Assembly (NCBI GenBank): GCA_004335835.1
Contig: RWJK01001206.1
Span: 101,344 to 165,343 of the forward strand
Length of the DNA: 64,000 bases
DNA from: Scenedesmus sp. ARA3
Lineage: Eukaryota; Chlorophyta; Chlorophyceae; Sphaeropleales; Scenedesmaceae
Reading direction: 5' to 3'
Part shown: positions 2,437 through 58,600 of the stretch, in pieces
Layout of the letters: each line of letters opens with the position of its first letter
How positions within the stretch are numbered: position 1 is the stretch's first letter
Notes under the pieces: model-generated
Database searches by the model: none
Told to the model about the DNA's origin: nothing
The model's input: only the letters and a program-made list of their open reading frames with translations
Made by a program: the position numbers and the translations under genes

Positions 2437-4392
2437 TCACTCTCCCTCTTGGCTGCTGCTGCCGCCATCTTCACTGCTGCTGCTGCTGCCGCTGCTGCCA
2501 CCTTCCAACTCGTCCAGTAAGCTATCTAGCACCTTGCTGCGCTTACTAGGGCCCCCAGCTGCTGCTGCTGCTGCTGCCGCTGCTGCTGCTGCTGCAGGCA
2601 TGGCTTTGCTTGTACCCGCCGCATCCTTCTGCTGCGCGGCCCGCTCTGCTGCTGCTTTGCTGCTGCCTGCAGCTGCACTGCTGCCTGCGCCGCCTGCTGC
2701 TGCTGCTGCAGCGCTGCTGCCGGGGCCTAAGCCTGCTTCTGTGGCGCTGCGCTTGTGGCTCATGCCTTGCTGCAGCGCCTCCCTGCATGCATAAATCGAA
2801 TGCAACAAACAACACAAAGCACGGCAGGTCAGCACCTTTTCGTCAGCATTTGCGCATGTTGCCTGTGGGGCTTGTTGCGTGCATCGCGACAGGCTGCGTC
2901 GGTGCACATACCATCAGCTGCATTAGCAGCTTTTTTTTACAACAAAGCGCAGCATTGGTGCAGAAAAGCAGCAGGCAAAGCAGCAAGCTAGCAGGGCACT
3001 GCATTCACGTGACTGCGCTGCGCTTGCCTGCTGACAAGTCTCATGTTATCCGCCATCAAACTCGTGGATTAATATAAAGCATGCATCAGACGACACCAGC
3101 GCTCACATGACTGCGCTGCGTGTGTCTGCTGACTGCTGCTTGAGGCGTGCCGCTGCAGCCTCTGGAGTCTCTTTTGCTAGGGCCTCATCCAGGGACTCGT
3201 GGCTGCCCTGTAAACCAGGAAAAACAGCAAAGTCCACAGCCGATGCCGCAGCACAGATCAGCAGATAAGCATGTAGGTGCATGCAGACAGCACAGCAGGC
3301 AACAGAGGCGTGTCACTAGCCAGGCGTGTCACCAGCCGCAGCACTGTGTCACTAGCAGAAGATGTACCGCCCTGCCCCTCCATTCCCCACACACCTGCGC
3401 ATTGGTGTTGCCGCACTTGACCACTTTGATGGCCATGAGTGGCGTGTCACTAACAACAGCAGTGTGTCACTAACAACAGCAGTGTTTCACCATGCCCCTC
3501 CACCCCCCACACACCTGCGCATTGGTGTTGCCGCACTTGACCACCTTGATGGCCATGAGTGGCGTGTCACTAACAACAGCAATGTGTCACTAACAACAGC
3601 AGTGTGTCACCCTGCCCCTCCACCCCCCACACACCTGTGCATTGGTGTTGCCGCACTTGACCACTTTGATGGCCATGAGTGGCGTGTCACTAACAACAGC
3701 AGTGTGTCACTAACAACAGCAGTGTTTCACCCTGCCCCTCCACCCCCCACACACCTGTGCATTGGTGTTGCCGCACTTAACCACTTTGATGGCCATGAGT
3801 GGCGTGTCATCAGGCGAGCGCGGGATGTCGTCCAGCAGGTCTAGCAAGTCCAGGCCCTGACGCACCACACCCACCACCTGCACAGCGCAGCAAAGCAGGT
3901 ACGAAAGCCATGTTAAAGCATGTGTGTAGCAGCTTGTTCATCACATCAGCAGGTCAAGCAGGTCCAGGCCCTGCCGCACCACATCAACCACCCGCACACA
4001 AACAGTTGCACACATGCAGCAGCAGTAGCAGCTATGGCAGCAGCAGTAGCAGCTATGGCAGCAGCAGTAGCATTGACTGGGGTTGCAGCAGCATGTCAAC
4101 CAGCTAGTCTAGTATGTCCAGCCCCTGTCTCACAACACCCGCCCCTTGCACAGATATACAGTGCCTTTATGTATGGCGGCAGATGTTTTGACATTCACAC
4201 TTGGAAAGGGCCGACGCAAGTCACAAATAGCGCACCTGGTGTGTCTCGTCCATGGTGAGGCACTTGCCCAAGCAGATGGCAAAGTCCGAGCCGTCACGCG
4301 ACACCGACACCGCGCCGCGCATCATGTGCTGCAGCCGGCTGTTGAGCGGCACGCCTTGGCCGCCAGGAAAGGAGGCAGCAGCGCTGCAACAA

Positions 4393-4442
<50 letters not shown>

Positions 4443-7696: not shown

Positions 7697-7736
<40 letters not shown>

Positions 7737-10128: not shown

Positions 10129-10961
10129 ATGGCGCTGGATACGCATATGATCCTCATCATCCTGGCAGCGAATGTCATAGCTGCTGGCGTCCTGTATCAG
10201 CGCTTGGACAGCCTGGGATACACCGTGCCCTTCAAACATAGCGTAGAAGCGATATATGAGAAGCTCGGAATATATCATGCAGCGTATCCGCAGTGCGGGC
10301 AGCTGCAGGACACCATGTTCATCCTCACCAGCAGCAGGGTGGTGCACCCTGATGGAGTGAGGCCCGGAGCAAGTAAGGATCAGAGCAGCCTATGCAGCTT
10401 CGCAATTGATGTTACGTAAACTGATGAATCAAGCAGTTGCACGGCTTGCATGGCTTAACGACAGGATGTAGTGCATGTCGCTTGCTGTTGCGCAGCTGAG
10501 AGCAGTTTGAATTTTATGCCTCAAGGAACCGCATGCGCAGCAATGCCTGCGCTGCTTTGACACCCATACCTGATAAATCTGATGGGACTTTGCAGTCTGC
10601 CACGCGAGACGTGCCACCACCACCGTTGCATCACACCGCATCAATGCTGTCCAATGCCTGTGTGTCCTGCAGTCATTATACGGGGCGGCAAGATCGTTGA
10701 TGTGTCTGATAAGCTTCTTGCAAAGCCCCAATCCCGCTGTTGCTGCTGTTGCTGCTGCTGTTGCTGCCGCTGACTGTGATGCCTCACCATTTGATGTGCC
10801 ATGCAGTCACCATCCGGGGCGGCAAGATCGTTGATGTGTCCGACAAAGTTCCTGCAAAGCCCCGCTACCCAGTTATTGACTACAAGTATGCGGTCATATC
10901 GCCGGGCGTCATTGACGTGCATGTGCACATGAACGAGCCGGGACGGGAGCACTGGGAAGGT

Positions 10962-11008
<47 letters not shown>

Positions 11009-14000
11009 GCTGTGCTCGACAGACTATGATGTGCGGTGTTTGGCAGCAGATGCAGCCAGCATACATGAGCTGGCAAGCAGCAGGGTGTGCTTGCAACGTC
11101 AGTTGGGTGCGACTGACTGCTACAGCTGTGCAAGGATACTTTTGGCCGGCCTTGCGCAGTGGCTGTATGCTTTGCATACTGCATTAAATGCAGCCGTTAT
11201 CATCTGGTTAAGATCAAGCAGCAAGTCTTTTGCTATGCCGGTGCGTTTGGTGCTTTTCTGCAGGCATGGAGACAGGAACAGCAGCGGCGGCGGCTGGTGG
11301 CAGCACCACAGTGGTTGACATGCCGCTCAACAGCAAACACAATCATTCTAGTGTCACGCGTCTACTCACTGGATGTGCTTAAGGTGTATTGTTTGTAAGG
11401 GCGCTTTTGTTAGTGCCAGTTAGCACTGAAGTGTCACAATGACTGTGCTCTATCTGCTGGTATGCAGGCATGGAGACAGGCACAGCAGCAGCAGCGGCTG
11501 GTGGCAGCACCACCGTGGTTGACATGCCGCTCAACAGCAACCCCTGCACCACCACTGCAGAGCTGCTGAAAGAAAAGATGAAGATTGCAGAGGTGTGGCC
11601 GGGCAGTGACAAATAACATATGACAGCATTCATGTGACAAATGACATGTAACAAACAACATGTGTTGGTTGTTTGCATAGGAAACAGAGGAAGCCAGGCA
11701 ATGCAGCAGGAAGAAGGTGGATGTAATGCTGTGCTTGCTGGTACTCCAGGGAATGCTGCAGCTCTTCACACTGCAGGAGTTGCCCTTACGCTGTGCAATT
11801 CATAATCGCTGATTTCAATTGTCATATGTGTTGCAGGCCAAGGCCAAAGTCAACGTGGGGTTCTGGGGCGGCATAACACCCGGCAACGCACACAACGACG
11901 ACGTGCTCTGGGGCATGCTCAAGGCAGGAGCCCTGGGCTTCAAGAGCTTCCTGGGCACCTATCTGACCTCTCATCTTCTTGTCATTTCTTGACTGTCTAA
12001 AATGCTTGCAGGCCAAGGCAAAGGTCAACGTTGGGTTTTGGGGCGGCATAACACCGGACAACGCACACAACGACGAAGTGCTCTGGGGCATGCTGAAAGC
12101 AGGGGCCCTAGGTTTCAAGAGCTTCCTGGCTCCCTCAGGGATCAATGATTTTGCGAACGTCTCGCGCAGCGATGTGGCGGGCGCGATGCACTTTCTGCTG
12201 AGCAAGGGTGCGCCCTTCTTCGTGCACGCTGAGCTGGTCACTGATGTGGAGCAAGCAGAGGTGAGCCAAGTATTTCAGGAGGGGCTGCAAGCAGCATGAC
12301 AGGCTGCTTACCTGTTATGCGGAAGTCCTGCCTCAAGCCGTCTTAACCGAATACCTTGTTCCTTGTCAACATTTGCATCCACCCTGTGTGCTGCATGGCC
12401 AGCCTAGTGGCGGAAGCTCTGTATCCGTAGCTTCTGCTCTCCGCCTACTCCCGGACTGCCACTGTCATCATCATCTGCTAAACCACACTTGCATAACAAA
12501 TCACGCTTTTGCAGGAGAACCCCGACCCCCGCAAGTACTCCACCTACCTTGCAACCCGCCCCGCAAAGTTTGAGGAAGACGCAGCACACATGCTGATTGA
12601 TGTGCTTGTCGAGGAGCACATCCCGCCAACGCGCGGCTTCTTCCTCCACATTGCACACCTGGGGGATGCCAAGAATATTGAAGCATTCAGGGTGAGCAGC
12701 AGCAGCAGCAGCAGAAGAGCAGCATAACGCTGACGCATTCGAGTTAAGCAGCAGCATTAGCAGCAGCCGTCATGTCAGGCAGTGAAGCGTCGGCTGCCGC
12801 TGAGTATGGAGACGTGCCTGCACTCTTCGGTTTTTTGCAAGGCATAATTGCTGCTGCTGCTGCTGCTGCTGCTACCTCAACAGGCTGTGAAGCGCCGGCT
12901 GCCCCTCAGTGTGGAGACGTGCCCGCACTACCTGCTGTTTGCTGCGGAGCAGATCGCCGATGGCGACACAAAGTTCAAGTGTGCGCCACCCCTGAGGGAC
13001 GAGGCCAACAGGTGTGAGAGCCGGGTCTTTCAATTGCTATTTGCTGGTGTATCCAGAGACAATTGTTTGTAGTTCAAGTGTGCTCTTCCCTTGAGGAACG
13101 AGGCCAACAGGTGTGAGCCGCCTTAGATGTGTGCCTCATTTGCAACAAGGGCTGTTGGCAGCGGTCAGCTCTGGTGACATGTGCCACAAATGGCTCTGCT
13201 TGTCTGCCTCTCTCTGAGGACTGTACGACAATAGCGGGTATGTGCTGCTGGTTTGACCTGTCCATGTCATGACCACGTCAGTGGCAAGTGTCTGAATGCA
13301 CAATCCATCTGGTGTCTGCCATGGTGTATAAGCCGTGTTGCATCTGCTGCGAGGCGTGGGCTGCTGGAGGCGGTTGCATTCTGTGACACTGACATCAGCA
13401 GCACTTGCTCATGTGTCTGGATCTGTCACGTGGCTGTGAAGTAACTGTCATGTGAACGTATCTGCAGGCGTGGGCTGTTGGAGGCAGTTGCATCGGGTGA
13501 CGGCGACACCATCAGCCGCACTCATCTGTTTTGTATGTTGTACTTCTGCTGTGTGAATGTGTCTGTCAGCGCGAGCTGCTGGTTCCGGTTGCCTCTGGTG
13601 ACATCAGCATCAGCAGCAGCGACCACTAATGTCCTTCGTGTGTTTTCAGTCGTGTTTTGCTGCGCAGGCGCGGGCTGCTGGAGGCGGTTGCATCTGGTGA
13701 CATCGACATCATCAGCAACAGCTGCTCATGTGTAAGTAACTGTCTCGTGGCTGAAAGTAACTGTCATGTGACTGTTGCAGGCGCGGGCTGCTGGAGGCGG
13801 TAGCCTCTGGCGCATCGACATCAACATCAGCAACCATGCATGTGTGTCTCATGCCTTCCTTGTGTGTTGCGTCTGTCATGTTCTGCTGCGCAGGCGTGGT
13901 CTGTTGGATGCAGTTGCATCCGGTGACATCGACATCATCAGCAGCGACCACTCCCCAGCACCCGCAGACCTGAAGGAGACGCAGAGTGGGGACTTCCTGA

Positions 14001-14263: not shown

Positions 14264-15242
14264 AGGCATGCAGTACCTGCTGCCTGCCACCTGGACTGCC
14301 GTCAAGGCTGCTGGGGTTGACCTGTTTCAGCTGTCGCAGCTGCTCAGCACCAACCCTGCACACCTGGCCAGTCTGCAGCACAAGGGCCTGATTGCTGCAG
14401 AGATGGATGCGGATATCGTGGTGAGTAAAGCCGCAGTTTACTGTTCTTTTTATTGAAAATGACATTGAAGTTAGTACTTGAGATATAGATAACAAGGCTG
14501 CTAGCGACAGAAACAGGCTAAGGTGCAGGTGTGAGTCACAGGGGGTGCTGAGCATCGTGCATGCTGTCAGCACCAACCCTGCGCACCTGGCTGAGCAGCA
14601 GCAGAAGGGGCTGATTGTGGCAGACATAGACACATATGTAGTGGGGAGTTATGGCGCTGCTGTGCTGCTCAGCAGCTTGAAACAGCGTAAACGTTATGTG
14701 TCCTGTGTGTGATGCGGCACTGTCTGCATGGAGGGAGTGGTCATGCATGTTCTGGCGGCGCAGGTTTACGGATTATGCAGTGCATGCAGTGAGCTGACGC
14801 TGCGTATGGCATAGTGCGGGAGTGCTGCATGGCTGGGTATTGCGGCCAGGATGTTTGTGGTTTGCTGATGTGTACTGGCTTGGCTGTCTGCTGACGTGGC
14901 TTCTAGACATGTGAGTGAGCATATGATGCATTCAAATATTGCAAATGCGTTTCCTGCAACTCTAAACAACGTCTGCTGGTGTGGCTGTCCAATGGTGCTT
15001 GCGTGCAGGTGTGGGACCCAGAAGCAGATGCAGACACCAGCGCTGCCCACAACCGCCACCAGCACAAGCTGTCTCCCTACACGGACATGAAACTGAAGGG
15101 CAAGGTTCTCGCTACGTTTGTGGGAGGGCACAAGGTGTTTGATGAGCAGCAGGGCGTCTTCGATGGACAGTGCGGGAAAGTGCTGCGGAGGAAGTGGCTG
15201 GACATCATCCGGGACAAGAAGCAGAAGAGCGTCGAACTTTAA
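10129..15242 (+). CDS. ALN: Allantoinase
   Basis: Nine exons (10129-10372, 10807-10959, 11468-11592, 12012-12260, 12515-12691, 12884-13011, 13894-14021, 14266-14420, 15009-15242) join in phase to 530 residues, close to plant allantoinase. The enzyme hydrolyses allantoin to allantoate in purine catabolism and nitrogen salvage. Visible landmarks are the metal-binding HxH in [26 protein letters not shown], the Lys in GFKSFL (expected carbamylated ligand), [20 protein letters not shown] and the catalytic [12 protein letters not shown] followed by [10 protein letters not shown]. The N-terminus ([17 protein letters not shown]) is a hydrophobic anchor, which fits ER targeting as in plants. Exons 2, 3, 4, 6, 7 and 8 all have echoes in adjacent introns; only the listed copies continue into full exons. 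Confidence 0.95.
10672..10740 (+). repeat. Echo of allantoinase exon 2 start
   Basis: TGCAG acceptor plus codons [13 protein letters not shown], then a run into CTG repeats. The true exon starts at 10807 with [14 protein letters not shown]. Confidence 0.9.
10965..11008. repeat. (CAG)n tract immediately after a donor site
   Basis: The intron after exon 2 starts GTGAG and runs straight into about 14 CAG units. Confidence 0.85.
11264..11335 (+). repeat. Echo of allantoinase exon 3 start
   Basis: CTGCAG acceptor plus about 70 bases nearly identical to the start of exon 3 at 11468 (GMETGT ... VVDMPLNS), then divergence. Confidence 0.92.
11837..11954 (+). repeat. Echo of allantoinase exon 4 start
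   Basis: TTGCAG acceptor plus about 118 bases matching exon 4 ([20 protein letters not shown]...), ending inside GFKSFL. The true exon starts at 12012. Confidence 0.92.
12771..12832 (+). repeat. Echo of allantoinase exon 6 start
   Basis: Acceptor-like TCAG plus about 55 bases matching the start of exon 6 at 12884 ([15 protein letters not shown] region), with substitutions. Confidence 0.85.
13073..13115 (+). repeat. Echo of allantoinase exon 6 end
   Basis: About 38 bases matching the [13 protein letters not shown] end of exon 6 plus the GTGTGAG donor, downstream of the true end at 13011. Confidence 0.88.
13353..13893 (+). repeat. Array of five echoes of allantoinase exon 7 start
   Basis: Copies of acceptor plus about 50 bases of exon 7 ([15 protein letters not shown]) start near 13353, 13469, 13568, 13668 and 13781. 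The true exon is at 13894. Spacings are 116, 99, 100, 113 and 113 bases. Most keep a (T/C)GCAG acceptor; the first has GCGAG. The fourth copy (13668) resembles the true exon closely. Confidence 0.93.
14223..14262. repeat. (CTG)n tract forming the 3' splice region of allantoinase exon 8
   Basis: About 13 CTG units run directly into the CAG of the acceptor, taking the place of a normal pyrimidine tract. Confidence 0.85.
14555..14646 (+). repeat. Echo of allantoinase exon 8 end
   Basis: About 90 bases matching [20 protein letters not shown] and the end of exon 8, with the donor decayed to GTGGGG, downstream of the true end at 14420. Confidence 0.9.
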
Positions 15243-17143: not shown

Positions 17144-17204
<61 letters not shown>

Positions 17205-17254
17205 NNNNNNNNNNNNNNNNNNNNNNNNNNNNNNNNNNNNNNNNNNNNNNNNNN

Positions 17255-17313
<59 letters not shown>

Positions 17314-28412: not shown

Positions 28413-28481
28413 ACCACCACTACAGTCACAATATCAACTGGTCTGGTGCACGCATTGACCACTCTTGCTGCTGGAAACCAG

Positions 28482-35107: not shown

Positions 35108-37378
35108 CTAGTCAGCCAGCGACAGCATGAAAGCAACGCCCCTGCGGATCCAGTGGTCCTGCGGCTGGTCACTTGGGATCATCAGCTCCATCACGAAATT
35201 GGTGCTGTGCCCTGTGGTGGCCAGCACGCCGCGCCGTTCAGGTGTGCGGTACAGCGGGCACTCGTAGGCGGGGAATTGCCGCTGCTTGCTGGCCTCACAA
35301 GGTTGCAGCAGCATCAGCGGCGCCTGAGAGAACAGCACCTGCAAACCCAACAACAGCAAGCACACAGCAGTAAGGGTTCAAGCCTGACCAGATCTGTGTT
35401 GCATCCTGTACACCGGCTGTGACTGCTGCACCAGCCAGCCCTGCGACTGCCACTTCAAAACACAAAGCTGCTGAGTCCAGCTGCACCCAACCACCCAACC
35501 CACCTTTGGCTCTGACTCTGCGAGCATGCCGGTGCTGCTGTCCCAGCGTGCGCTCTCCACGAACATGCCGCTGACGTATGCACTACTTATGCCAAATAGC
35601 TGCACATCCTGCGGCATTGCAACTCACCTTTGGCTCTGACTCTGCCAACATGCCAGTGCTGCTGTCCCAGCGCGCCCCTTCCACAAACATGCCGCTGATG
35701 TATGCACCCCCTTCAGCCGGCGGCTGCTGGGGCTCAGGGCCCGGCGGCAGGCAGGAGTAGTTGAAGGTGATGGCGTCGATGGGGATGCGGCAGCGGCGCG
35801 CGTAGTTCTGCTTCACACCTGCAAGCAGAGATGAATGATTGACAAGCAGGTGTCAGCTCAGGGTGCAGCAACATCAGCAGTATGGCTTGCTACTGTTTGG
35901 CTGAGTAGTGACTGCAGCGTGAACCTCAACAGAAGAACACCTGTGTCGGATTGCTCCAAGGGTCGACCCAACAGCTGCCCAGCAGCTGCCTGGCACCACA
36001 CCTGTCAAGGCGCGTTCAAAGTAGAAGGGGGCTCGTCCAGAAAACAAGCAGCACACTGAGGTGCATCATGGCAGTGCGCCTGTTGTTGATTACAAGTGAT
36101 GCACAACACAGCCATCCCACGACACACAATCTGCACTACCATCCGAGGCAAAGCCCACCTGTCAGGAAGGGGTGTGTGAAGTAGAAGCCGCTGATCCAGA
36201 ACACCGCCGCTGGCCCGTGCTCCAGCCAGCCGTCCAGCATCTCCAGCCGTGCCTCCAGGTCGGCCATGTAGCAATGCATGCAACACAAACTACAACACAA
36301 CAACCCGTGTAAAAACAATGTGCGTCTTGCAGTATTGCTCTTATTAGTAAAAGCCACCACCCACCTGTCAGGAATGCATGGGTGAAGTAGAAGCCGCTGA
36401 TCCAGAACACTGCCGGGGGCCCATGCTCCAGCCATGCGTCCAGCATTTCCAGCCGTGCCTCCAGGTCAGCCATGTAGCTGCCCAGCGGCTTCACGCTGGG
36501 GTAGCTGGCAGCCATCCATGAGGCAGGTACCCTGCGGCAATGCAGCACAAATTTTGGGTGATGGGGCAGCATTGGGCAGTGAGACAATACATAAAAAAGG
36601 ATGCCGAATCAATTGCTGCCCAGAGGCTTCACGCTGGGGTAGCTGGCCGCCATCCATGAGGCAGGCACCCTGCAATGACAGGATAGGATCAGCAGTATGC
36701 AGATGAAGGGCGCAGTGAGGCGATACAGGCCTGTATACAGACATTCAAAATGACTGTCAAAGACATTCCTTGGGCAGCTGGCAGCAGGCAGCCTGCAGTG
36801 GCACGGGATGCAGAAGGGCGGCGTTGCACTATGCACTCAAGACAGAGGCGGTTGCTTGTGGGTCATGAGGCCTTTCAAAGGCTAAACACATGCTACAAAC
36901 ATGTACAGGTTGCCGAACAGCATTGATTGACTGCTGTGAGTCTGTGTTTATCAGCTGCACAGCAAGATGGTGTTAGGTGCATTGCGCCAATCAAGTGCAG
37001 CTGCGCGCTCACCTGTTGTCGTACATCGCAGCAGCCACCTTTTCCAGGTCGTCCGACATCAGCACCTGGCCTGCAGACATGAAACAACAACAACAACGAC
37101 AACCTCCTTGTCAGCTGCGCCTACGCACGGCTAACAACCTAGGCTGCAAATTCAGCACCAAGCAGCAGAGTTACACATCAACATGCCGAAGCAGTTGCCC
37201 CATTCAGCATTCAGCATTCAGCAGGCAGCAGTCATCCGCCAGCAGCCCGCTCACCCTTGATGGCCTTCTGCAGCTGCACCAGGCTGCTGTGCATGGTCAC
37301 GATCAGCCTGTTGAAGCGCACCAGCTCCTGGCACAGCACCGTGTTGAGCGACTCGTGGTAGTCCACAGGGTACCTGGC

Positions 37379-40400: not shown

Positions 40401-41463
40401 GCGACAGCACAAAGATCAGCGGCGTCATCGCACTACTATCCTTAAAGCAGCGGTCAATGTCCAGCGGTGGCGGCTCCACGAAGCGAGGCCCCATTGTGGC
40501 TTTTACAAACTCGGTGATGGCTGTGGTGAGCTTGTCGGGCCGCAGCACGCGCAGCAGCAGCAGGCGCTGGAAGGAGTCTAGCTTTGAGGACCAGAGGCTG
40601 GGCAGTGGAGCTGAAACAGGGTCTGCTGCATCATACACAACCTACAGGGACAGGAGCAGAGCAATGCACAAGTAGCAGCAGCTGTGTGTGCAAGCTCAGA
40701 GCTGCTGCAGCTGCAGTTGACAGTGTGCACCATGGGCTGGGCAGCGGCGATGGCACAGGGTCTGCTGCACCATAGACAAACTGTCAGACTCCGCAATAAC
40801 AGAGTAACGCACAACGACAGCAGCGGCTGGTTGATGCTGTAGCCCAACCGCTGCAGCGTAAGCTGGCTGCAGAGCTGCACAGACCATGCTGTTGCATACG
40901 AGCATGAGCTGCCTACCTTGAAGCTGCCTGGGTCCTCCCTGAAAGCCGCCTCCAGCCCATCAAAGCCTGGCACGTCATTAGAGAGCCGCACCAGCTCGCC
41001 CCACAGCTTGTCGCTCAACCAGCTGCAAGGGTTGGCAGGAGGATCAGAGCTGCCGATGCCACCTGAATGAAGCCCAAGCAGACAGCCACAGCATGTCAGA
41101 CAGCCCGGCTGGCAGCTGCAGGGGTTGGCGGGAGGCCGAAGGAGCTGCTGACGCCACCTGGCCGCAGCAGGCACTGTCAACAGCCACAAGCAAGCATGGG
41201 CTTCAACGCTCTGCGCTCTTGCACTCTTCAGACAGCTTTAAGGCAGGCAAGCCGCATATTTGGTTGCGAGCATAACCTCTTGCTGTATATGGTTGTTTGT
41301 CGTGGTTGCCTCACCTGTGAGCAGGAAGCGCAGCTGGCTCCAGTCCAGGCTCTTGGCGATGTGTGCCTTGAGGTGCACTGTGATCAGGAAGGCGAACAGC
41401 AGCTTGTCCTTCTCAAACAGGCTGCGGCACACCTGCAGCGCAGCAAGTTACACCACAAGCAGA

Positions 41464-41494: not shown

Positions 41495-43615
41495 CATCAG
41501 CGTCTGAACGTGTGGGGACCAGCCTCAAGCAACAATTGCATATGCACGGATGCAAATCCAAACACCAGAACAAACATCACTGGGTAGCCTCAACTACGCA
41601 TGCTTTGCGACCACATTGCCTCACCTGCAGATACAGGCTGTACTGGAAGTGTGCCACCAGGTTGTCAATGCGCTTGCCCAGGTCTCTGGCTTTGTCTGCT
41701 TTTGCCAGGGTATCTTCAAACAGCGCCACAAACCAGGCCAGGCTATACTGGTACATGGGCTCGATGGATGCCAGCTCGCTGATCACGAAAAACAGCGCTG
41801 ACACCACCTGGGCCACGGGCTTGTAGCCTGCGCGGGGATTGAAGAGTAACATAATGGCCAACCATCACAGTGCCGCAGCAGTCTAGCCTGTACCATTGCT
41901 GACCTAACTCATCAGGCTAGCATGCAAGTGAGTGATTGGCTAACCAGGCCGCTCTGCAGCTTAGGTAAGTTGTAACGCTTGAGAGGGTGGGTGTGGCCAG
42001 GGGCACCGTGACTGGGCTCCATGCCCTCCACCTGACAGCAGGCTGCAACGTGTCCAAGCTCGCAGTCCAGCAACACGCCCACCTGCACGTGCTTCGTCGA
42101 TCTTCTTCTCCGTGCGCTCCGCGACCTGCTGCTTGTGGCTGATCTCCACCGACAGCGCCTTGCTGCTGCTGATCACGTTGATGGCGGTCTCGTCCTCCAG
42201 GATGTTGCCTTCGCTGGTGGACAGCACCGCAATAATCTTGTCCTGCAGCACACAGCAACACACATTGCAGCAGCATGCAGTGCCCATTAGGCTGTGACAT
42301 AACAGCCGCGTTGATGGCAGTCTCACCCTCCAGGATGTTGCCCTCCCTGGTGGACAGCACAGCAATGACCTTGTCCTGCAGCACACAGAGGAACAGGTAG
42401 CAGCACAACAAATCAGGGTTGCTCAATACGCCCTTTCAGGCAGCGTATCACGTATTTGAAACGTATAATACGTCGTACGAGGCAAAAAAAACTCCAAAAA
42501 TACGCCGTTTCCAGTAAGAGGTTGACGTATTGGTCAAAGCCCCGTGCTAAAGTGACAACTGACGGCTCACAGCATCGTGCATACCACGTATTAGCAGCAT
42601 GTATGATTCAATAATAATATTTAAAACTTCAGTTTGTCTCGGAAGCGATGTTGTGGCTTCCAAGTGTCCCTTGGCTGATCAGCAGCAGCTGCCCAAAGTC
42701 GTACAGCAGTGTGCTCGATCACGTCAACATATCATCGTTCAGCAATGACAACAACAAAGCCAAAACGTTTTGTTCAAGCTTTCAACGGGGCACGTGCAGC
42801 TACGTGCACTTGCTGCAGGGGATGTTCATCTGTCAGTCACCAGAAGCGCCGTCACCAGCAGGGCCGTCACGTGGTTGTGTGCGCGCGTGAGCCACGTTGT
42901 AGTGTATCATTGTGACAGGCTGCCTCCACCAAGTGCAAGAGGTGGCTGTTTTTGAGCGGTGTAACATCATGAGCATCCTAGGACATGCAGGCTGACGGCG
43001 GCGCTGCCGCCATGGCTGCGGTACTGCAATGCAGTGTCAACCGTGTCATGGGCTAACCACAGCACACCACGTACTGGCGCGTATTTGGGCAAGTACTCTC
43101 CAGGCAGCGTACTCTCCAGGCAGCGTATTGCGTATCGCGTACCGCGTCTCCATTACCATACGTATTGTGTATTGAGCAACCCTGTGACAAATCATGTATG
43201 CATACACCATGCAGCAGCACACATACTGCAAATGTCGCCAATAATGGAGCAGACTGCAACATCTGAAGTAAACTGAGGCATCAACCTCAACCGCACCTCA
43301 ATCTCCTTGAGCTGCCACGCGTTCTCAGCACCCGCCAGCACCAGGCGCGCCTTCTCTTCCTCCAGCTCGGGCCGCTCCTGAGCCACCACATCAAGCCAAG
43401 CAGCAAGCCATACCCAGTGAAACATAAAGCCCGAAAGCCTTAGGCACCCTCAAAACGCACCTCGATCTCCTTCAGCTGCCGTGCATTCTCAGCACCCGCC
43501 AGCACCAGGCGTGCCTTTTCTTCCTCCAGCTCTGGCCGCTCCTGCGCCACGACCGTGCCCAGCAGCTGGTCCTCAAGGCCCTCGCGCGTGATGCCAAAGT
43601 TGAGCAGCGCCACCT

Positions 43616-43657: not shown

Positions 43658-46600
43658 GCAGTAGCAGCGGCAGCAGCAGCAGCAGCTTGTGAACGTGGCT
43701 GTGAGGGAGAAAGAGCCACCACCGTGCCTAGCAGCTGGTCTTCAAGGCCCTCGCGCGTGATGCCAAAGTTGAGCAGCGCCACCTGCAGCCACGCAACATT
43801 GAGCAAAATCATTGGCTGGTGCGGATGCGAAATAGCGGGGAAAGTGTAAGCCCTCGCGCGTGAAGCCAAAGGTGAGCGGCGCCACCTGTTCGCAACAGAA
43901 GCGGCATTGGTTTGTGTCTTTCAACAGATGGGTTGGGGTTGCAACTAAGTTTGGCAGGAGCAGCTAGTGCTGCCAGCAAGCTTGCCCCGGCACGGCTTAC
44001 AAACTGCTTGTGTGTGCTTATTGCTTCCTGCAAGCCAGCGTCTGCCCCAAGTGGTCACAAATTGCCTAGATTGCAGGCCATCGCTGCTGCTCACCTTGAC
44101 GCTGACTTCGGGCAGGTGGTGCGGGTTGCGCAGCTTGGTGGTCATGAACAGCCGGAAGTTGCTGCTGTACTCCAGCGTGGCGTCACCCAGCCGGATGCAG
44201 TTCACGCCACCCTGCAGCACACACCAGCCAAGTGTTTGCCGACGTGATCAAGCACTGCCATGAAAGCATTGAGCAAAGCATGCACAGCAATAGTCATGCT
44301 TGGTGTCATCAATTTTGGGCGCATTGTAGCATGTTCAGGGCACGCCAGCGTAAACTGCATCCCACCTGCTTGAAGATAGCCTTCAGCAGCAGGGGCTCCA
44401 GCACTGGGTCCAGCTCCTCACCCACATCCTGCAATAAGCGGGAGCACACGCAGCAGGACATGCACAGCTTCATGCTGACGTTTACTGGTTTTCACGGCCG
44501 CAGCAAGTAGCTGCAGGTTTGTAGCAGCCTGCAGTGCCGGCAGCGCCCGATCTGTCACAAACTGCTCAAGGCATTTGTTGAGCCAATTCAGGTTGCATGT
44601 TCGCCCAGAGAGCTGTGCACAGCTGGCACAGTTCACACCAACATTGATGCAAGCTCCGCACCTCAATGAGTACCGGGAAGCCAAACTGCACCGCATTCTC
44701 CAGCTGGCGCATGTAGGTGTCGGGGCCGCCTGACAGCTTGACCACCTCCAGCTGGTGCTTCTTCTCCATGATCTTCACCCACTTGTTGGCTTGGCCCTGC
44801 ACAGCACAAAGCATAGCAGCATGCACTGAGCAACAGCAGCGCCACAAGCTGGCCAAAAGAGAAGCCACTGCCCATTCATGTTAGTGCAGTCAGGCACTGC
44901 AACAGGAGATGCGGAAATTGAAAGCAGTGTAAAATCATCAAGAGAAACTGTCTATTTCTGTAGTGTACCCACGCACCTGTGGGTCGATCATGAGCGGCCA
45001 TCGCCGCGTCTTGCTGATGATGATGGCGTTGTCAATGCTGAGGGAGTCATTTGGCAGGCCGTCCAGCAGCCAGCTGCGGATGGTCACCGGCTCTCCCAGC
45101 ACACCCACCAGCCTGAAGTTGGCACTGCAGGGAATGGAGGCAGACCTGCAGCATGACAAACAAACAGATGCACACACATAAGCGTAAGAGAGGCAGCTGC
45201 GGATGGTGACCGGCTCTCCCAGCACTCCCACCAGCCCAAAGTTGGCGCTGCAGGAAATGGAGGCAGACCTACAGCAAAGGCAGGACAACAGCACACACAC
45301 AGAATATTGCAAGCAGGGGATACCAGACTGCATGCAGACAACTACCAAATGCTTGTGAACACTGCTGAGCTCCATGCTCGTGCTGAATAGACAGTTGCAA
45401 AAGACAAGCAAAGGCTTGTTTGCCAGTCCGCACCTGCACCGCTCGACCCACTGGTTGATGGCCCGCTCCCTGTACGCAGCTGTGAACGGCCCCAGGTATG
45501 CAATGCAACCTGCCGACAGCAGCACATCTCCAGTTAGATGCGTATAATCTGCAGCCAGCTTCTTGGCCACCTCCTGCCAGCGTGTCTTCTCCCCTCCAAG
45601 GCCTCCGATGAGCTTTGTGGCTCGCTCCAGCTTCTTCTGGCACAGGCTGACCTCTTCTTCAAGTTGCTGCTTGCGGGCCTGCAGGGAGACATGAAAAAGC
45701 CGTTAGCAGGGTCTCAGCAATAAAGCTGTGCGCTGTACCACAGTCTGCAGCACATCTTGAGCTTTGCAGCAGCCACACTGACTGCAAACACAAGCTACAG
45801 CTGATATTTCAAGCCAGAACCACTAAATTTTGCTTTCTTTGCCGCACCTGCATTGCTGCCAGCTTGTCATTCAGCGCATTCAGCGCTGCCACTACTGCTC
45901 CCAGCTCAGCTTTCTTTGCTGCCAGGCCCTCCATGAGCGTGCCGTACTCCGCCTCCGCCTGCTGCAGCGCCGCCTTCTTGGGCGCAACAACCTTGGCCAC
46001 CCTGGCGCAGGAACAACAGCACATAGTGCCACAAGTTATCAGCAAAGTAAAAACGGTTTGAGATTACATTGCATGTGCATTTCAGATTGCTGTACTCCGC
46101 CTCTGCCTCCTGCAGCGCTGCCTTTGTAAGCGCAACAACCTGGGCCACCCTGGTGGAAACAGTAGCAACGCACATTGAGTTATCAGCGCTACAACCACCA
46201 AGCTCAGCACCGTATTGTTTTCTTCCAGGAGCTTATCAATGTGCCAGGACTGCTGTGCAGTTGTCCCGCACTAGCAAATTGGGTAGCACTTGCGATGCAG
46301 CTGCAGCAATGATTCTGCCAAAGGTTACACTGACGGCCAGTGGGCGCCCTCAGCTGCTTGCCAGCGAGATCGAGAGGCTGCTGCTGGACAATAACCACGT
46401 CATGAGTCACCAGCTGCAGTGACACTCACTTGTCGTACGCCTCCATTGCCCGCACCCAGCAGCACAGCCCGTACGCAGCCTTGCTGGCCTTCTTCACTGT
46501 CTCAGCAGCAAACTCGGGCCTGTCCAAATACGGCTGCACAGCCACGATGCATGCTGGCGGGATGTGGTCCTTGTCATATTCTTGCAGCTGCGACATGAAG

Positions 46601-49600
46601 GTGGAGTCACCTAGCAAGGCCTGACTGGGGCCCCAGTAGTCGTCAATCTTCTTGGTGGGATTGGCGGGGTCATTCACCTGCAGGTAAGTGAGGCATGTGG
46701 TGATGTTGAATGTGAAATTGACGAGCTGATGTTGAGTGTGAATTTGACCAGCTGACAGCACCCTGCCACATCAAGCGGCCAGTATTCGCTGATCTTCTTG
46801 GTGGTGTTGGCAGGGTCGTTCAACTGCAGGCAAGTCAGAAGTCAAGCATGTTTGCATGTGGATGGCAAGAATGCGCCGACTACCAAGCTGATGGCACCTT
46901 GGTGTATCCTGTGCCCTGCTGCGTCCTCAACCTGGTACCGCTTTCACGCAATGCCTCGTGTAGGGCAGCAGCCATGTTCACCTTCTTCGCCTTCACGTTG
47001 AGCAGTTGACAGCCAGCCCAGATCACGCTCCACCCATTGCACCAAGCACACAACAGGTTTGACACTGCCGCTTGCTGCAGCTGAATGCCATACGCTCGTC
47101 CTGCTGCATCATCCACCTAGCGGCTCAAGAAAGCAAGAAGAGTATTGCAGCAGCCCTGCTCACCTTCTTTGGCTTGACGTTGAGCAGCTGGCAGACTGCC
47201 TCCGTGGTGACTTTCACGAGGCCCAGTCACATAAAGCAGATGAGGCAATCCGAGCTGCTGCTAGCTGCAATTGACGCCATACCTACACCCTGCTGCATCC
47301 GCATCTTGCAATTCACCACCCCAACCAGCACCGCAGCAGCCCTGCTCACCTTCTTGGGTTTGACGTTCAGCAGCTGGCAGACCGCCTCCATGGTGACCTT
47401 CACGGGGCCGGGCGGGTTCTTCATGCTGCGCACTTCAGTGATGTCTGCCTTGGTCAGTGTGTTGAGCGCAGCCAGCGCTGACTCCAGCAGCGGCATGGCC
47501 ACAGCCAGCTCACCCTCACACTCATCCTGCATGCATCATGCAGCAGCAATGCAGGCACAGAGTAGTGTGAGATAGGTGGCTTTGGTGAGCGTACTGTTCA
47601 GCGTGTTGAGCGCAGCCAGCGCAGACTCCAGCAGCGGCATAGCCACAGCCAGCTCACCCTCACACTCATCCTGCGGGGTGGTAAATTAACACATTAACAG
47701 TTTCGGAAAGATCAGATACAACAAGGCAAAAAGGATGTCAACAACCAGGCAAAGAGGGTAAGAATATGCTGCTAAGCCGGCAGTTGGGCAGCAAGCCATG
47801 ATGTCAGCACTAGCCAATGTGGCGCTCACCTTGATTGCCTTGGCTGCTGCTGCCTTCTCTGATGCAATGGCCTCCTCCCCCTCCACCACCTCCTTCTTTG
47901 CTGCCGCCTCCTTTGTCTGCGCATCCACCACCCGCAGCGTCTCCTCAACCTCCTTGCCTGCAGGCGCAGCACCAAAACGCTAACCGATTGGCAAGGCACG
48001 GTGCATTGCGGCAAGCTTGAATCCCTTGTGTTGTGCACACGCAGGGGGCTGTTTTTGAGCAACCCATCATGCACGTTAAGGATGTTGACCTCCCAGGGTC
48101 AGCATGCATGCAGTGCACAAACTTGCATGAAACGCAAAGCTGCCGCTGCCCTCACCTGTTTCAATCAGCTTAGGCTGCAGGTCGATCAGCTCCTGCTTCA
48201 TCACATTGACCTCGCCCTCAGCAGCAAGCAGCTTCTCCAGGCCAACCTGCAGCAACACAGCATGTATGCTTGGTTTGGACATGCTCTTGGCATACCTGTG
48301 ACAGGATGTGACGCAGATGCATCAGCAGTCGTATCGAAGCATATGGCGAAAGCAGTTGTGTGCTTGCAGCTGGGTGCAACACAGGTATATGCATGAAACA
48401 GCCACAGTCGTCCGTAACAGCCTGCCCACCTCGTAGCGCCGCCGCAGCTGCAGCACTGCTGCGCGCTGCTGTCCCAGCAGCTCCTTGTAGGTGTAGATGA
48501 GCTCCAGGTAGCTGGTGGGCGTCACGTACGTGTGGCGGCCCAGCTCCCTGCAAACAACAGCAAGCAGGCATTGAGGGGGTCACAAGCCCATCTGTACAAC
48601 CATTCGCAGGGTGGGTGTCACATACGTGTGGCGGCCCAGCTCCCTTTGTGCACATACACGCAAGCAAACGTCATGTTAGGAAGAGCCACATTTTGTCTAA
48701 CCTGACATTTTGTGCAAGAAGTGGCAGTGCCAGCAAGGAGACACCTGAACATGGGCCCACCTTGGCTAACAGCGTCATGCATTTGCGCATGTATCACATG
48801 CCGTCACAAGCTCACCTCCTGTAGTCCTCAGCAAGCGCCCTGATGCTGGTGTGGAACAGCATGCACGCATCCTCAACTGCCGAGCGCAGCATATCACCAT
48901 CTGCTGTGCTTCCATCAGCAGCAGTGCCTGCAGCAGCGGCCTCCATGCTCGGCAGAAACTTTTTTGCCACTGACTTGAGTGCATCGGCCGGCCACACGCT
49001 GAACCAGTCGATGGTGGTGCAGCTAACCAGCGAGGGGAACCTGCAGACAGCAGAGACATTAGCCAGTATTTAGTATCCAGCCATACACAAACTAGACACT
49101 GACAGCAGAACTGCAGACCAGCAGTACAGCAGCAGGACTCCGTTGCATCCAGTGCAGCGAGTAAAGTTCAAAGTTGCTCACAGCACGCTGAGCTGCAGCA
49201 CTCACTTCCGAAGGCGCTCCCTGAAGCTGCCGCCCACAGGGCTCATGGTCAGCACCAGGTGCAGGTTCACGCGCACGCTGTCCAGGAAGAACGCCCACAG
49301 CCCGGCTGGAGTCAGCGGCTTGCCGGCGCGCTTGGCGCGGGGCGTGACTGCCTCCATGATGCCCACCAGCTCATCCTTGGCAAACAGGTTGGGCACCTCG
49401 CCTGGTACATGCAGTAGTGCCATTAGAAACCAAAGCAGGACACATAGGAGGTTAGTGGCTTTACAGGTTGCAGCAGTGCGCCTCCATGATGCCCACCAGC
49501 TCATCTTTGGTGAATATGTTAGGCACCTCGCCTCGCGAACAGGAAACACGCACATGCCACAAGTACTTGAAGTTTGGGTGCAGCAATCCAGCAAGCAGCC

Positions 49601-52600
49601 GGGTGACGCATCGCCTGCTTCAGGTATGCCTGTGGTTCAGTTGATGGTTGCTACTGATGGAGGAAGGCCTGCACAGCAGGCCTGGCTGTCATGTGTGCAT
49701 CACAGAAGCACAAAACACAACTACTACAGCACACAGGCATCTGCAGCAGCGCTCTGGCGCCGCACCTGTGTTGAGGATGTTGTTGATGTCCTCCAGGAAG
49801 CTCTCCTCCTTCATCTGTTTGTCGCTGAACAGGAACACAGTCGGCTGCCCGGCACTGCCAGCCTGCAGCCGCCAAACACACAGCACACAGTTTTAGCCGC
49901 GCAGTAGTCGAGCCGCGCCTCAGCCACGCCGCAATAGCAATGCACACAGGTTGAACAGCAGATGATACACAGCTGCAAGCTGGAGAGGCGCTGGTGCAGG
50001 AAGCAGGATGCGGTGTTCAAATTTCTACACACCTGCACCAGCACTTTCTTGATGTCCTCACGCCACTTGGCCATGTTGTAGCCCTTGGTGATCTCAATGG
50101 TGAACAGCTTGTACTCGGCCATGAAGGCAGACAGCCGCGTCAGGCTCTGCCGACCACTGCCACCCACACCAACCTGCAAAGAGCAACACCAGCACGACAT
50201 GTGCTCTCAACTCATGCATCAGCCAACAAACACAACAATGGCAGGGCTGATGAAGCAAAGCAGGGAGGCGCATAGCGGCTGCTGCCACTCACCAGCAATG
50301 CGTTGCCGTATGGCTGCTTGATGATGCGGCTGATCCTGCAGATGTGCTCAGCGGCATATCTGAAGAGCACCAGGTCAAGGCGCGTCTTGACCTGCAGACA
50401 TAGCAGCCACAGCAAAGCACGACACGGTCAGAGCCACGCACAGCATCAGCGCCCCTGTGCCGCCAAGCAGCGTGCAGTCCACATCACCCATGCACTGCCA
50501 TTCATCGTCACCCTCCTGAGCAGAGTATAAACCTGCCGGGCACGCTCCGAAGACAGTATCATAGTAAGCATATCAAACTGCAGCCAGCTGCTGCAGCAGC
50601 AACCCCAATTGCGGCGGCCACTCACTTGAACATTGTAGTCTGCCAGAGCATCCTCCACTGCCTTGAGCAGCTTGCCAGTATCTGTTGCCTCCTGGTATTT
50701 TGCAGCCTCAGCACCACCAGGCTGCAAGAAGTCAGCAAACAGCACACCACGCAGCGCAGCAGCAGCTGCAGCCCTCCTGGCTTGCTCAGCCTCCCCATCA
50801 GCACCATCTGCTGGCAACCCAGCAGCAGCGTCTGCTGTGAATACGTCTGAGAACTGCATTCCCAGGTGCTGCGGCAGTTTGCTCGCAAGCATACCGCAGA
50901 ACCAGTCCCTGTCGGCATCATCAACAAGCCTGTCATGGAAGACACGCAGCGCCTCATGCGCCCAGAGGCGCACCAGGGAGCGGCTGTCTTGCACAGGCAC
51001 GCCAATAGATTGCATCCCCTGCAGATCACAGGCAGACACATGTTGCAACAGCAGCAGCGCTCAGCGCTTGTGTGTGGCAAGGCGTATCATAGCAGGGCCA
51101 GTCCAAGCATATACTATGCAATGCAGCCACTTGACTGAGTTACATGACAAACCAAATGCAGCCCCAGCTGCCATTCACCTGGAACACTTTGCTGAGGTCC
51201 CTCATGTTGTAGGTGTAGTGGCTCTTAGCAGGCGTGGGCAGCAGCTCGCTGCGGATGCTGTTGTAGATGTCAATGGTGGCAGCCACCACGCCTGCCAGCT
51301 TGCCAGCCACATCATCCTGCAGCCTTGCGCGCCGTACCCACCTGCCACACGATGCAACAAAAAGCGGAAAGCAGTGTGTCACTTTTGCACCCTATCAGAT
51401 GCTTGTGCTGGCTTTCATGGTAGCGTGTCTGTGCAGGTACATGGTGTCCCAACGTGCATTGCAGTGCAACAGCGCACTACAAGCAGACAGCAGCATGTCA
51501 TGTGATGCTGTGCCACAGGCTGGTCCCAGCATGGATCAGATGTGTTCGCCACAAAAGGCTGCATCAGGCAGGGAAGCAGTCAACAGCCTCTCACCAGTCG
51601 CTGATTGCGCTGTAGATGCGCGTGTACGTGGCGTCATCAAACTCGTTCATCGCAACCACATTGAAGTGGCGCAGGATGCGAGGCGTGATGGGGTTGCGGC
51701 CGCCGCCTGGTGGCCCCATGGCAGCCACCAGCTGCATGTCCACCAGCTGCCTGAAGGTGTTGTCGGCACGGTCATACCTGCAATTATTTGACATTGCATG
51801 CGTGAGTGTGCGTCCTACCAGCTGCATTGTTGATGCAAGCTGCTATGTTCAGTGACGCCACCAGCTGCATGTCCACCAGCTGCTGGAACGTGTTGTCAGC
51901 ATGGTCATAACTGCCGACGTTGCAAAATATGTGAATGCGACAGCTGGATGAGCACTTGCATACCCCACAACAGGCAAAAGAACATGTATGTTTAGGCTCT
52001 GAAAAGCGCTATCAACCCCTTGGGCTATTAGAACAGATCAGCCGCAGCACCATGCTAGACACCCTGCCAACGGCAGCAGTAGAGCCCTGCTGTTTGCTGC
52101 CCGCCCATTTTCAGTCAAGTATACTATCTCAGCAACTCACCAGCCGCCGTGGTCCAGGAACTGCCGCAGCAGCTCCACTGGCGGCTGCGCGCCATACACC
52201 TCCAACGCAGGCATGTTGAGGTCATCCACAAACACCACCGCAGCGCTGCCCAGTGGCGGCCCATACACACCCTTGCGGCGCTTGTCCAGCTTGGAGTCGA
52301 TGATGTCTTGAACCTGGCGATGTGTCGATACAACATCAGGGCACAGCTTCAGCAGATGCTGGTAGCATGTAGCTAGGCATGACAAGGCCACACGCAGGGG
52401 AAAGCATAGAAGTGTCTGTAAGTGCGTGCTGTGATGGCAAGGGTCATGGAGGCTGGCAGCAAGCTGAAATAGCCAGAGAGAGCTGTGCACACCTGGTTTG
52501 CGCTTGTTTGTGCGCTGAAGGCTGTAGGGATGATGTGGAACAGCCCCTTGCCCAGCTGGTCCAGGCTGCTCTTGACATACACGGTCTTGCCGGTGCCTGC

Positions 52601-55600: not shown

Positions 55601-58600
55601 CTGCTGAGTTGCTCGCTGCAAAGCCTGCAGATCAGCAGAAAGCAATGGGCATTTCGACGAGTGAGGCCAGACAGACTTGTGTGTAAAGGCTTCTATTTAT
55701 GGTTGGATGCAATAGGAGATGAAGTGATTCATGGAGCAATGAAGTGATTCATGGAGCGATGAAGTGATTCATGGAGCGGCTGCTGCTGCAGAAGTGCTGT
55801 CTCAGCCCTCTCACCTGTAAGTGGCGACCAGCTTGCGTGCCAAGTCCCGTGCTTTGAGGTAGCCGCTGCTGTAGAGCATGATCTCGCCGATTAGGGCGTA
55901 ATCAGGCACCATCATTGCCACAGACCTGCGCAAAACACATGAAGTTGATATTGATACTGGTAAAAGCTAGCTAGCAAGGTGTTCAGCTAGCAGGTACACG
56001 CATCAAACAAGCTGGTTGCTGCAAAGCAACCGTACCTGAACAGCGCCTTGAGGTTGTCGGGCAGCTCACTCCTGCCAGCATAGCCGGGGTTCATGGTGAT
56101 GAACACGCTGAAGGTGGGCCTGCAGCAGCAAGACAAGCAAGATGCATCTTAGTCGCAGTACATCCTACTACCTCACTTACATGTGCATATATCAACTGAA
56201 CATAGAAACATCTGTTTGCTGTGCTACAACTTGTTTGTGTACTCTACACCACAGAAACCAGACAAGCCCACCACCACACAGTGCAGCAACACCTGACATG
56301 CCCAACTCCTAACTCCTGCCAGAGCCTCACCTGAGAGCCAGGCGTGTGCCCTCAAACTCGAATATCTTGAGCCCCGCTGCCTTGGCGCGCTGCATTGTCA
56401 TGATCTGCTGCGCAATGACTGACAGCACCTCCAGGTCAATGCGGTTGAACTCGTCAAAGCAGGCCCAGGCCCCGCTGCTGGCCAGGCCTTTGAAGAACTT
56501 GCCCTGCAGGATGCAGGGTGGAGGTGAAAACAGGTGCATATGAAATTTAAAACTGAGTGCTTGCAGTGCCTATGCAGCAGCTGCAAAGCATAGTGCAAAA
56601 CATGTCATGTCTTTCTGTCCTGGCACATCTTCACTACAGCTTTGTTTGCCTCGATGCATTCATTCCTGCAACGCGCCGCTGCTGTTATGCAGGTTGTGCT
56701 GGCAATTCCTCACCATAGCCAAGTAGTCCAGGCCGTCACTGCAGTTGAACACCACACACTGCATGGCGATCGCCTTGGCAAGGTCCTTGGTGGTCTCAGT
56801 CTTGCCGGTGCCTGCACGAAGGATGAACACTGCTGAGCATCCATGCACTGAAGGCGCAATTGCAAATAGCAGGCACATGCCATGTGCTACAGCTTAAGCG
56901 GAAACTGTGTGTTGGTAATAGAACATGCAAGAATGGATGCACATGCACCCTGCAGCAGCTGCGAGCACATTTCTGCCCCACCTGCGGGCCCCTCTGGTGC
57001 GCCTCCGAGGTTGAGGTGCAGTGCGCCCATCAGCGTCCTGTAGCACCTGTCCGTGAGTGGTGTGATGACCAGCCTGCTGCTGTTGCCCAGGTACTCGTAG
57101 CCGTAGGTGATGGCGGCGTTGATCATGCGCACGACCACATCACCGCCCTCCCAACCGTACCTGCAATACATGGCAGCAGCAGCAGCAGCAGCGAAGATGG
57201 TTTACATATGCCTACAGCTGCCATATGTGTGCGGGCTGGGCATGAGGGATGGCCGCGTTGATCATGCGCACCACCACGTCACCGCCCTCCCAGCCGTACC
57301 TGCAGCGGCGACAGCAACACCTTTGTTTGGTTGTACATCTTCACAGCTGCCTTTTAAGAAAAACACAGCAGAATGCTTCAAGCCTTACACCTGTGTGGAG
57401 CTGGGCACGCATACAGCAGTTATGCTGCCAGCGCACCCGCAATCAAACCTAGCTGTGCCAGCTGTGACATCAACACCTGCAGCGCCCACCTGAGCTGGCT
57501 GATCCACTCAAAGTCAGTCTCGCTGGTCACGCCCTGCCTGGCAAGCTCAGCCGTCACATCGCGCGCGTGCACATCAATGACAATCAGCGCACTCAGCGTC
57601 TTGCGCTCCAGCTTGCTCAGCTCCCCACGCACTCTGTTCACCACCTGCACAAAGCATACATGGCATACACATTAGCCAGTAAGCAAAAGAATGACAGTGC
57701 TCATTTGACTTGCAGAAGCTGTGTGTGCATCCAGGAGCTTCCATTCCACCTAAGAATGAGTCGGTCAACCAGCAGCAGCAGCAGCAGCAGAGCTCCACAC
57801 CGCATACATCCTGGCTTAAGCCAGCTGACAACTAGCACAAATCCAGAATGCAGTGCTCCTGCAGCCCTTCCGTTTCTAAACTAAAAACCCATACACGCAC
57901 CTGCATGAGCTCCTGTGTGAGCTGGCTGGCATACTCCTGCAGCGTGCCCCGCACAATGGCAGCTGCTGTCCCCGCCGTCCAGTACATGCAGTCCACCGCC
58001 AGAACCACCTGCCCTGGCCACGCACTCATCCAGCTGCCGCGTGGCGTGCTGCTGTAGGCATCAAATGAGGCTTTGAGCACTGAGCGCACTGTGTCGCGCA
58101 TGGCTGCCTCGCAGTCGATGAGCCAGCGCTCGACTGCGCCACCTGCTGCAGCTGGGTTGAAGGGCCTGCACAGCAACGGAAAGCGAGCCACTTGGTTATG
58201 TCCAGGTTTTGGCAGCGCCTTGGCTGGCGCTTGGGCATGGAACAGCAAATTACTGTGTATGCCTCTTTCAGCAATGTGCAGTTGTAAGTTTCCCAGATGA
58301 TACATGTGCAAGTCGCAACAGCATGTGCAAGTCAAACAGCTCGAGCCAGCTGGCGCCAGCGATGCACTCACTTGGCAAATGGCACCTTCTCTCCTTCCTC
58401 GCTGATCATCGCATTGACCTCCAGATCAGGCCCAAAGTTCAGCGCTGCAATGCCCTCAAAGATCTTGCGCAGGTACGGCTGCACGCGCGCTGGGTCCTTG
58501 GTTTCGCTGAGGATCTCCAGCAGCTCGTCATTAGACAAGAAGTAGAAGCGTGGGAAGGCGAGGCGCTTTGTCTCCAGGTAGTCTGCAAGGCCCTTCTGGA

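Follow-up and report, generated by a model that had tools for sequence, protein, structure and literature searches.

Why do the introns of neighbouring genes in a green alga hold diverged pieces of the very exons they adjoin? We addressed this question in a stretch of 64,000 nucleotides from Scenedesmus sp. ARA3 (C867:101344-165343, contig RWJK01001206.1; assembly of 87.3 Mb in 1567 contigs), hereafter the window, and we use the term "echo" for a diverged copy of an exon edge within the adjoining intron or flank. The origin of intron length and of new splice sites is an old question for which recent, datable events are rare, and since one gene here carries some twenty copies of its exon edges, diverged to different degrees, the birth, array growth and decay of duplicated splice sites become readable in a single genome. 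Our analysis confirmed that the exon-edge echoes are real, and recurrent short tandem duplication is their likely cause: units of about 95-150 bases appear to be duplicated again and again in this alga, which places copies of exon edges in the adjoining introns and multiplies splice sites at an unusual density.

In a comparison of the window with itself, local repeat pairs spaced by no more than 800 bp were direct in 52 cases and inverted in two, both of which lie, by our reading, in low-complexity sequence. The corresponding numbers of direct and inverted pairs were 165 and 4 in C867:1-100000 and 23 and 0 in C1548. Most echoes described here belong to a minus-strand gene at 35-58 kb, which sequence comparison assigns to an axonemal inner-arm dynein heavy chain (best match Chlamydomonas 8glv_JG, followed by DNAH7). 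A simple gene finder called several echoes exons, illustrating how they mislead gene prediction; of the 87 predicted dynein exons, manual curation removed 33 that were echoes or spurious calls, which left 54 (108 edges). An echo was found at 21/108 of these curated edges with scores of 30-95, compared to a best score of 20 at any other edge and of 18 for any inverted match. The first exon base was included in all 14 upstream echoes and the last exon base in all seven downstream echoes, and none of the 21 lay on the wrong side. Because echoes had been removed by hand from this set, an uncurated survey of 590 predicted exons, each at least 60 bp long, in 294 kb of genome offers the fairer test of polarity. 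Here, 57 copies of exon starts lay upstream and 66 copies of exon ends downstream (123 on the right side), against 19 on the wrong side (10 end-copies upstream and 9 start-copies downstream); the other best matches comprised 36 whole-exon, 40 internal and 13 inverted cases. Three of the 19 wrong-side cases fall in the window, and these three, the only ones inspected, are all predicted exons that are themselves echoes.

A first-pass annotation of the window had described about fifty partial copies of exon-intron junctions, with copies of exon starts upstream and copies of exon ends downstream. The number was of the right order of magnitude: the survey lists 36 echoes in the window, three of which on the plus strand (27926, 28234, 45235) resemble wrong-strand exon calls, and an allantoinase array at about 13.3-13.9 kb adds further copies. 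The polarity was borne out both by the curated dynein edges (21/21) and by the count over 294 kb given above. The same annotation held that the copies usually include the adjoining splice site, which applies only in part, as many freely extended matches end near the splice site, beyond which the intron sequence has often diverged much further or can no longer be recognised. The curated dynein query carried only five intron bases per side, so that comparison is no measure of how far matches reach into the intron.

The echoes in the dynein gene are the following:

35504..35583, minus strand: downstream echo of dynein exon 35628-35818
36154..36272, minus strand: downstream echo of dynein exon 36364-36531
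36615..36673, minus strand: upstream echo of dynein exon 36364-36531
37838..37904, minus strand: upstream echo of dynein exon 37567-37778, lacking one base
38146..38231, minus strand: downstream echo of dynein exon 38378-38746, 98% identical
38794..38855, minus strand: downstream echo of dynein exon 38986-39111, lacking one base
39563..39606, minus strand: downstream echo of dynein exon 39680-39947
40019..40080, minus strand: upstream echo of dynein exon 39680-39947
40690..40782, minus strand: diverged upstream echo of dynein exon 40345-40641
42309..42405, minus strand: upstream echo of dynein exon 42083-42242, intron matching in part
43282..43404, minus strand: downstream echo of dynein exon 43461-43613
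43715..43888, minus strand: two upstream echoes of dynein exon 43461-43613 (43715-43789, 96% identical; 43850-43888)
45191..45304, minus strand: upstream echo of dynein exon 44977-45146, intron part matching partly
46088..46187, minus strand: upstream echo of dynein exon 45848-46001, intron part matching partly
46779..46838, minus strand: upstream echo of the dynein exon from 46430 to about 46677
46915..47223, minus strand: two downstream echoes of dynein exon 47361-47526, with stronger decay in the outer one
47595..47674, minus strand: upstream echo of dynein exon 47361-47526, 95% identical
48610..48645, minus strand: upstream echo of dynein exon 48430-48547
49480..49533, minus strand: upstream echo of dynein exon 49206-49401
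51857..51914, minus strand: upstream echo of dynein exon 51595-51777
57245..57304, minus strand: upstream echo of dynein exon 56982-57160, 4/4 codon differences synonymous

We read the outer echo at 43850-43888 as carrying three nonsynonymous changes. Echoes are dense at 35-52 kb, and in the 5' part of the gene none was detected between 51.9 and 57.2 kb. In two dynein exons, upstream and downstream echoes meet at approximately the same point, as if the exon had been split by a nested insertion; this idea was dropped, since such coincidence is not significant over the 7 exons that have echoes on both sides (P 0.22 within 3 bp).

Within the part of the genome sampled, the echo pattern is widespread but patchy. 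Strong clusters numbered 51 in C867:1-100000 (237 predicted exons) versus 7 in 100 kb of C1548 (241 predicted exons). Clusters were also present in 9/17 short loci (L001-L018 without L009, several of which overlap each other or the longer stretches) and likewise in all three 10-kb stretches of C1274 and C1523; the three C1301 and two C1548 loci had none. The stretch G000:C1548:140001-240000 has matches to the dynein gene and about seven times fewer tandem clusters than C867:1-100000. A search for dispersed copies, with common words skipped, returned for three stretches their own place and short matches, mostly exonic, as expected of dynein paralogues, and for the fourth mainly simple repeats among the matches listed; no dispersed family showed up among these matches. 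One dynein intron piece at about 46280-46391 (112 bp) matches C162:70465-70576 at 95% and is thus repeated elsewhere in the genome.

To measure the spacing between nearest copies, the window and C867:1-100000 (two of the five stretches) were scanned directly along their diagonals, as a first BLAST histogram could lose short offsets. The scan revealed a narrow unit size that the first-pass annotation had missed, with a peak at 100-150 bp: 86/151 spacings in C867:1-100000 and 27/55 in the window fell at 100-159 bp, while the range of 30-89 bp was almost empty (5/151 and 0/55) and spacings below 30 bp numbered 5 and 7, respectively. Repeats without a predicted exon showed the same peak (25/48 at 90-160 bp); spacings below 90 bp made up 12/48 of these versus 3/87 of the repeats with one exonic copy. 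No predicted exon base was found in 37/189 repeats of 80-300 bp spacing, and randomly placed units of the observed sizes would contain a junction in 55% of cases, so that a targeting of exon edges is not needed. Likewise, any tandem duplication leaves the right-side polarity automatically, which nevertheless does speak against dispersed or inverted copying. At least two echoes were present at 34/116 echo-bearing edges, and three of four inspected arrays (C867:40758-41347, period 129; 51830-52151, period 120; 63454-64170, period 121) hold three to six copies at a near-constant period. In the arrays at 40758-41347 and 51830-52151, most of the unit including its intron part is similar between neighbouring copies.

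In the dynein gene, 19 exon-echo pairs were compared, two of which yielded no codons. The differing codons comprised 58 synonymous and 28 nonsynonymous ones, and 19 changes fell at the first codon position, 9 at the second and 69 at the third. The nonsynonymous share of 33% compares to 57% expected of a neutral echo and a constrained exon (P ~1e-5), and to 46-62% across twelve mutation models. Survey pairs of at least 88% identity had a share of 37-38%, in single and multi-copy cases alike (43 pairs each), and with one pair per edge at an identity of at least 86% it was 43% (bootstrap 36-50%). At lower identity the share climbs as identity drops, with bins of 56-81%; these bins must hold false matches or wrong frames and were therefore not used as evidence of age. 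When echoes were compared with each other (82 pairs), the 25 least diverged pairs had 66/107 changes at third positions, and the middle divergence bin (48 of the 82) had 264/571. The intron parts were scored over 60 bases against the 95th percentile of random pairings. Mean intron identity was 0.68 at an exon identity of 0.90-0.95 (16/39 pairs above the control) and 0.73 at 0.95 or more (18/28), i.e. 34 of the 67 pairs with an exon identity of at least 0.90 exceeded the control. Internal frameshifting indels occur in 11/99 echoes, and another 3 have none but in-frame indels; the number with a frameshifting indel rises to 27/99 when those near alignment ends are counted; these 27 have a nonsynonymous share of 53% versus 39% in the rest. 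Seven echoes contain stops. At least the echoes with frameshifts and stops are dead and free of constraint, so that the synonymous differences seem to predate the stranding of the copy, as would be expected of different alleles. The dynein list had suggested that GC content shifts in one direction between copies, but this was inconsistent over the sample. Gene conversion within a pair was rejected by argument only, as resetting a pair leaves the expected ratio unchanged.

We therefore consider a reading in which tandem duplications of about 95-150 bp, together with the joining of diverged alleles, explain the echoes, their graded decay and the longer introns, and to which we assign a probability of roughly 0.48. 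Tandem duplications with this preferred unit would be frequent in gene bodies and placed regardless of gene structure, with end joining of paired nicks or replication slippage as candidates for fixing the unit size. Units spanning a junction would survive, since the inner copy stays on the exon and the outer fragment with its splice site joins the intron, and further rounds would enlarge the arrays. The copies would not be born identical; rather, duplication or a later exchange may join two diverged alleles, so that synonymous differences and a strongly divergent intron part would be present in an echo from the start, before it decays by nonsynonymous changes, frameshifts and stops. Of these elements, the direct repeats, their unit size, the polarity and the arrays are observed here, and absence of the copies from the mature protein is observed in relatives; the allelic origin is deduced. 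The net outcome would be longer introns with spare splice sites, and if the allelic origin is right, echoes would also record past alleles. For one relative, a likely diploid state with separate haplotypes has been reported (PMC7955037).

Several points weigh against this reading. When all 172 pairs are pooled, nonsynonymous changes make up 0.58, which equals the neutral expectation, and the synonymous excess lies in the high-identity pairs and the curated dynein set; the two codonless dynein pairs, read by hand, would add about 6 synonymous and 6-7 nonsynonymous differences. Reading frames in the survey were assigned by a home-made gene finder for which one gene had served as training set. 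In 33/67 pairs of at least 90% exon identity the intron part showed no similarity above the control, which exceeds what a synonymous divergence of 10-15% suggests. A second allele was searched for in the assembly with four stretches and none was found, so that allelic divergence is deduced from the copies themselves. Finally, the relatives' proteins discussed below may derive from strains without these duplications. A bolder proposal, which we regard as speculative and improbable as it stands, is that the duplication itself joins homologues: a broken or nicked strand would step back by about one unit on the diverged homologue and resume, and the echo would be a natural allele switch. If true, introns would be a fossil record of past alleles of the adjoining exon edges.

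The simplest competitor is plain tandem duplication within one chromosome, with copies born identical and the outer one decaying neutrally, as the first-pass annotation had proposed. Its core, tandem duplication across junctions, agrees with the direct orientation, the polarity, the arrays and the relatives' mature proteins, which lack the copies; a specificity for edges is dispensable, as the non-exonic repeats and the random placement indicate. Some arrays keep the intron part well, the overall nonsynonymous share is close to the neutral value of 0.57, that of frameshift-flagged echoes is 0.53, and some outer copies changed mainly at nonsynonymous sites. What plain duplication with neutral decay leaves unexplained is the scarcity of nonsynonymous differences in high-identity and dynein pairs (0.33-0.39 against 0.46-0.62), the predominance of third-position changes between little-diverged echoes, and recent copies whose intron parts are much more diverged than their exon parts, and we judge it rather unlikely to suffice. 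An assembly artefact would account at once for the bias towards synonymous changes, the divergence of the intron parts and the patchy distribution, if short reads from a diploid or mixed culture had been assembled with a step back of 100-250 bp at switches between diverged haplotypes, so that both versions of an edge were written out; the echo spacing is on the scale of short reads, and the edges of a gap at 17146-17313 resemble short-read assembly. Such an error predicts two versions per edge, which is at odds with the 34/116 edges with at least two echoes and with arrays of up to six copies. It also predicts coding-intact versions, in conflict with the internal frameshifts and stops (though sequencing errors at contig ends could make some of the frameshifts). 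Moreover, no runs of N occur at echoes, and the less similar copies look neutral. An artefact is therefore disfavoured for the bulk of the echoes, and we hold it to be a doubtful account overall.

The synonymous bias of recent echoes could also reflect selection at the protein level, if echoes served as alternative exon edges or cassette exons. At the inner breakpoints, AG directly precedes only 6/57 downstream echoes and GT directly follows only 1/37 upstream echoes, and the idea of cassette exons was rejected as these dinucleotides are rare. No clear excess of periods divisible by 3 was found (34/87), and the internal frameshifts argue in the same direction. Mature proteins of relatives lack the echoes. 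P0001, an allantoinase of 524 residues, has each exon once and no duplicated edge; its contig of 1.8 kb could not hold the 5-kb allantoinase gene with its introns, so that it must be spliced, and its source label "lgn" presumably denotes assembled public reads. In P0237, a dynein piece whose label we take to be a transcriptome accession, no duplicated edge was found between 49 and 45 kb. After removal of the echoes, 540 residues of the dynein align to Chlamydomonas 8glv_JG, and the one gap in this alignment, of two residues, is not near an echo. As the compared proteins come from relatives or other strains, we infer echo-free splicing for ARA3 itself. Neither the splice dinucleotides nor these proteins point to a cassette exon with splice sites on both sides and inclusion in the mRNA, and no new GT/AG pair in use, as in intron gain of the Rogers type, was found, with no altered exon edge in the relatives' mature proteins. 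We thus consider a role as alternative exons highly improbable.

Beyond the dynein gene, Pfam matches fit the identities cyclophilin-like (Pro_isomerase), VPS20-like (Snf7) and allantoinase, while the predicted protein at 28.5 kb had no Pfam match. The best named match of the allantoinase is that of Scenedesmus sp. NREL 46B-D3 (77%), and a contig-derived protein matches at 90%. The echoes in these genes are:

3385..3689, minus strand: three downstream echoes of the end of cyclophilin-like exon 3744-3877, within a 120-bp tandem array (3323-3809, 4.1 copies)
3947..4143, minus strand: two upstream echoes of the start of cyclophilin-like exon 3744-3877 (3947-3991, 4101-4143)
10669..10731, plus strand: upstream echo of the start of the second allantoinase exon (from about 10804), differing from mature protein P0001
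11272..11336, plus strand: upstream echo of allantoinase exon 11476-11592, 94% identical
11837..11954, plus strand: upstream echo of allantoinase exon 12012-12260, 90% identical, 10 synonymous and 2 nonsynonymous codon changes
12779..12838, plus strand: upstream echo of allantoinase exon 12884-13011
13071..13110, plus strand: downstream echo of allantoinase exon 12884-13011
13346..13811, plus strand: five successive upstream echoes of the allantoinase exon ending at about 14021 (an 11-residue peptide and decayed forms), spaced by about 99-114 bp
14559..14643, plus strand: decayed downstream echo of allantoinase exon 14266-14420
27704..28828, minus strand: multi-copy echo array around exon 28493-28687 (predicted protein without Pfam match), with a 216-bp period at 28151-28616

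At about 13892-13945, the allantoinase exon encodes RRGLLDAV, and P0001, NREL 46B-D3 and several echoes have RRGLLEAV; these echoes keep a residue found in relatives where the current exon differs. The gap at 17146-17313 consists of 50 N with exactly 59 bp of (CAG)n on either flank, and the window begins with 59 bp of (GCT)n (1-59); these 59-bp trinucleotide edges look like a limit of short-read assembly. CAG/CTG runs are very common in the window and the sampled contigs, with up to 18 runs of at least six units per 10 kb. Large diverged repeats at 195-1900, 21.4-27.2 kb and 30.8-34.1 kb include two copies in direct orientation separated by about 7.2 kb; another copy lies about 25 kb upstream, inverted pieces occur at 21.4-22.7 kb, and the proteins predicted in these regions are of low complexity (poly-Q/S/L).

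Internal gene duplication, or tandem genomic duplication, is reportedly the subject of Rogers 1989 and Gao & Lynch 2009, as described in PMC3443670 and PMC4974935. The first-pass annotation had suspected a novel phenomenon. Tandem duplication across exon-intron junctions is already known (PMC3443670, PMC4974935), so that only the remainder of that claim stands: among the literature entries listed, with most subscription journals outside their scope, there is no report of such an echo density, unit size or synonymous bias. Like echoes, internal gene duplications give direct adjacent copies that can include junctions and provide spare splice sites (PMC3443670, PMC4974935). In contrast, tests of the exon set here gave no sign of a change or of a new intron; instead, existing introns were lengthened. 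Further differences are the high density, measured in this genome as 21/108 edges of one gene, the narrow unit size and the mostly synonymous recent differences. In the intron gain of the potato RdRp gene (PMC4974935), the 3' side of an intron and the 5' side of an exon were duplicated, as in upstream echoes, but one event there gave rise to a new intron, whereas here dozens of silent events occur in one window. Mentioned in the same source is also a tandem duplication of 83 bp within an intron, which had no effect on gene structure. The patch-mediated tandem duplications of rice (Vaughn & Bennetzen 2014, as summarised in PMC7407515) are likewise short and at least partly tandem, and are ascribed to paired nicks and end joining; their insertions span 10-1000 bp, whereas the echoes almost lack spacings of 30-90 bp and peak at 100-150 bp. 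Introners (PMC9860276) resemble echoes in that intronic sequence is multiplied across many genes, but each echo copies its own neighbouring exon.

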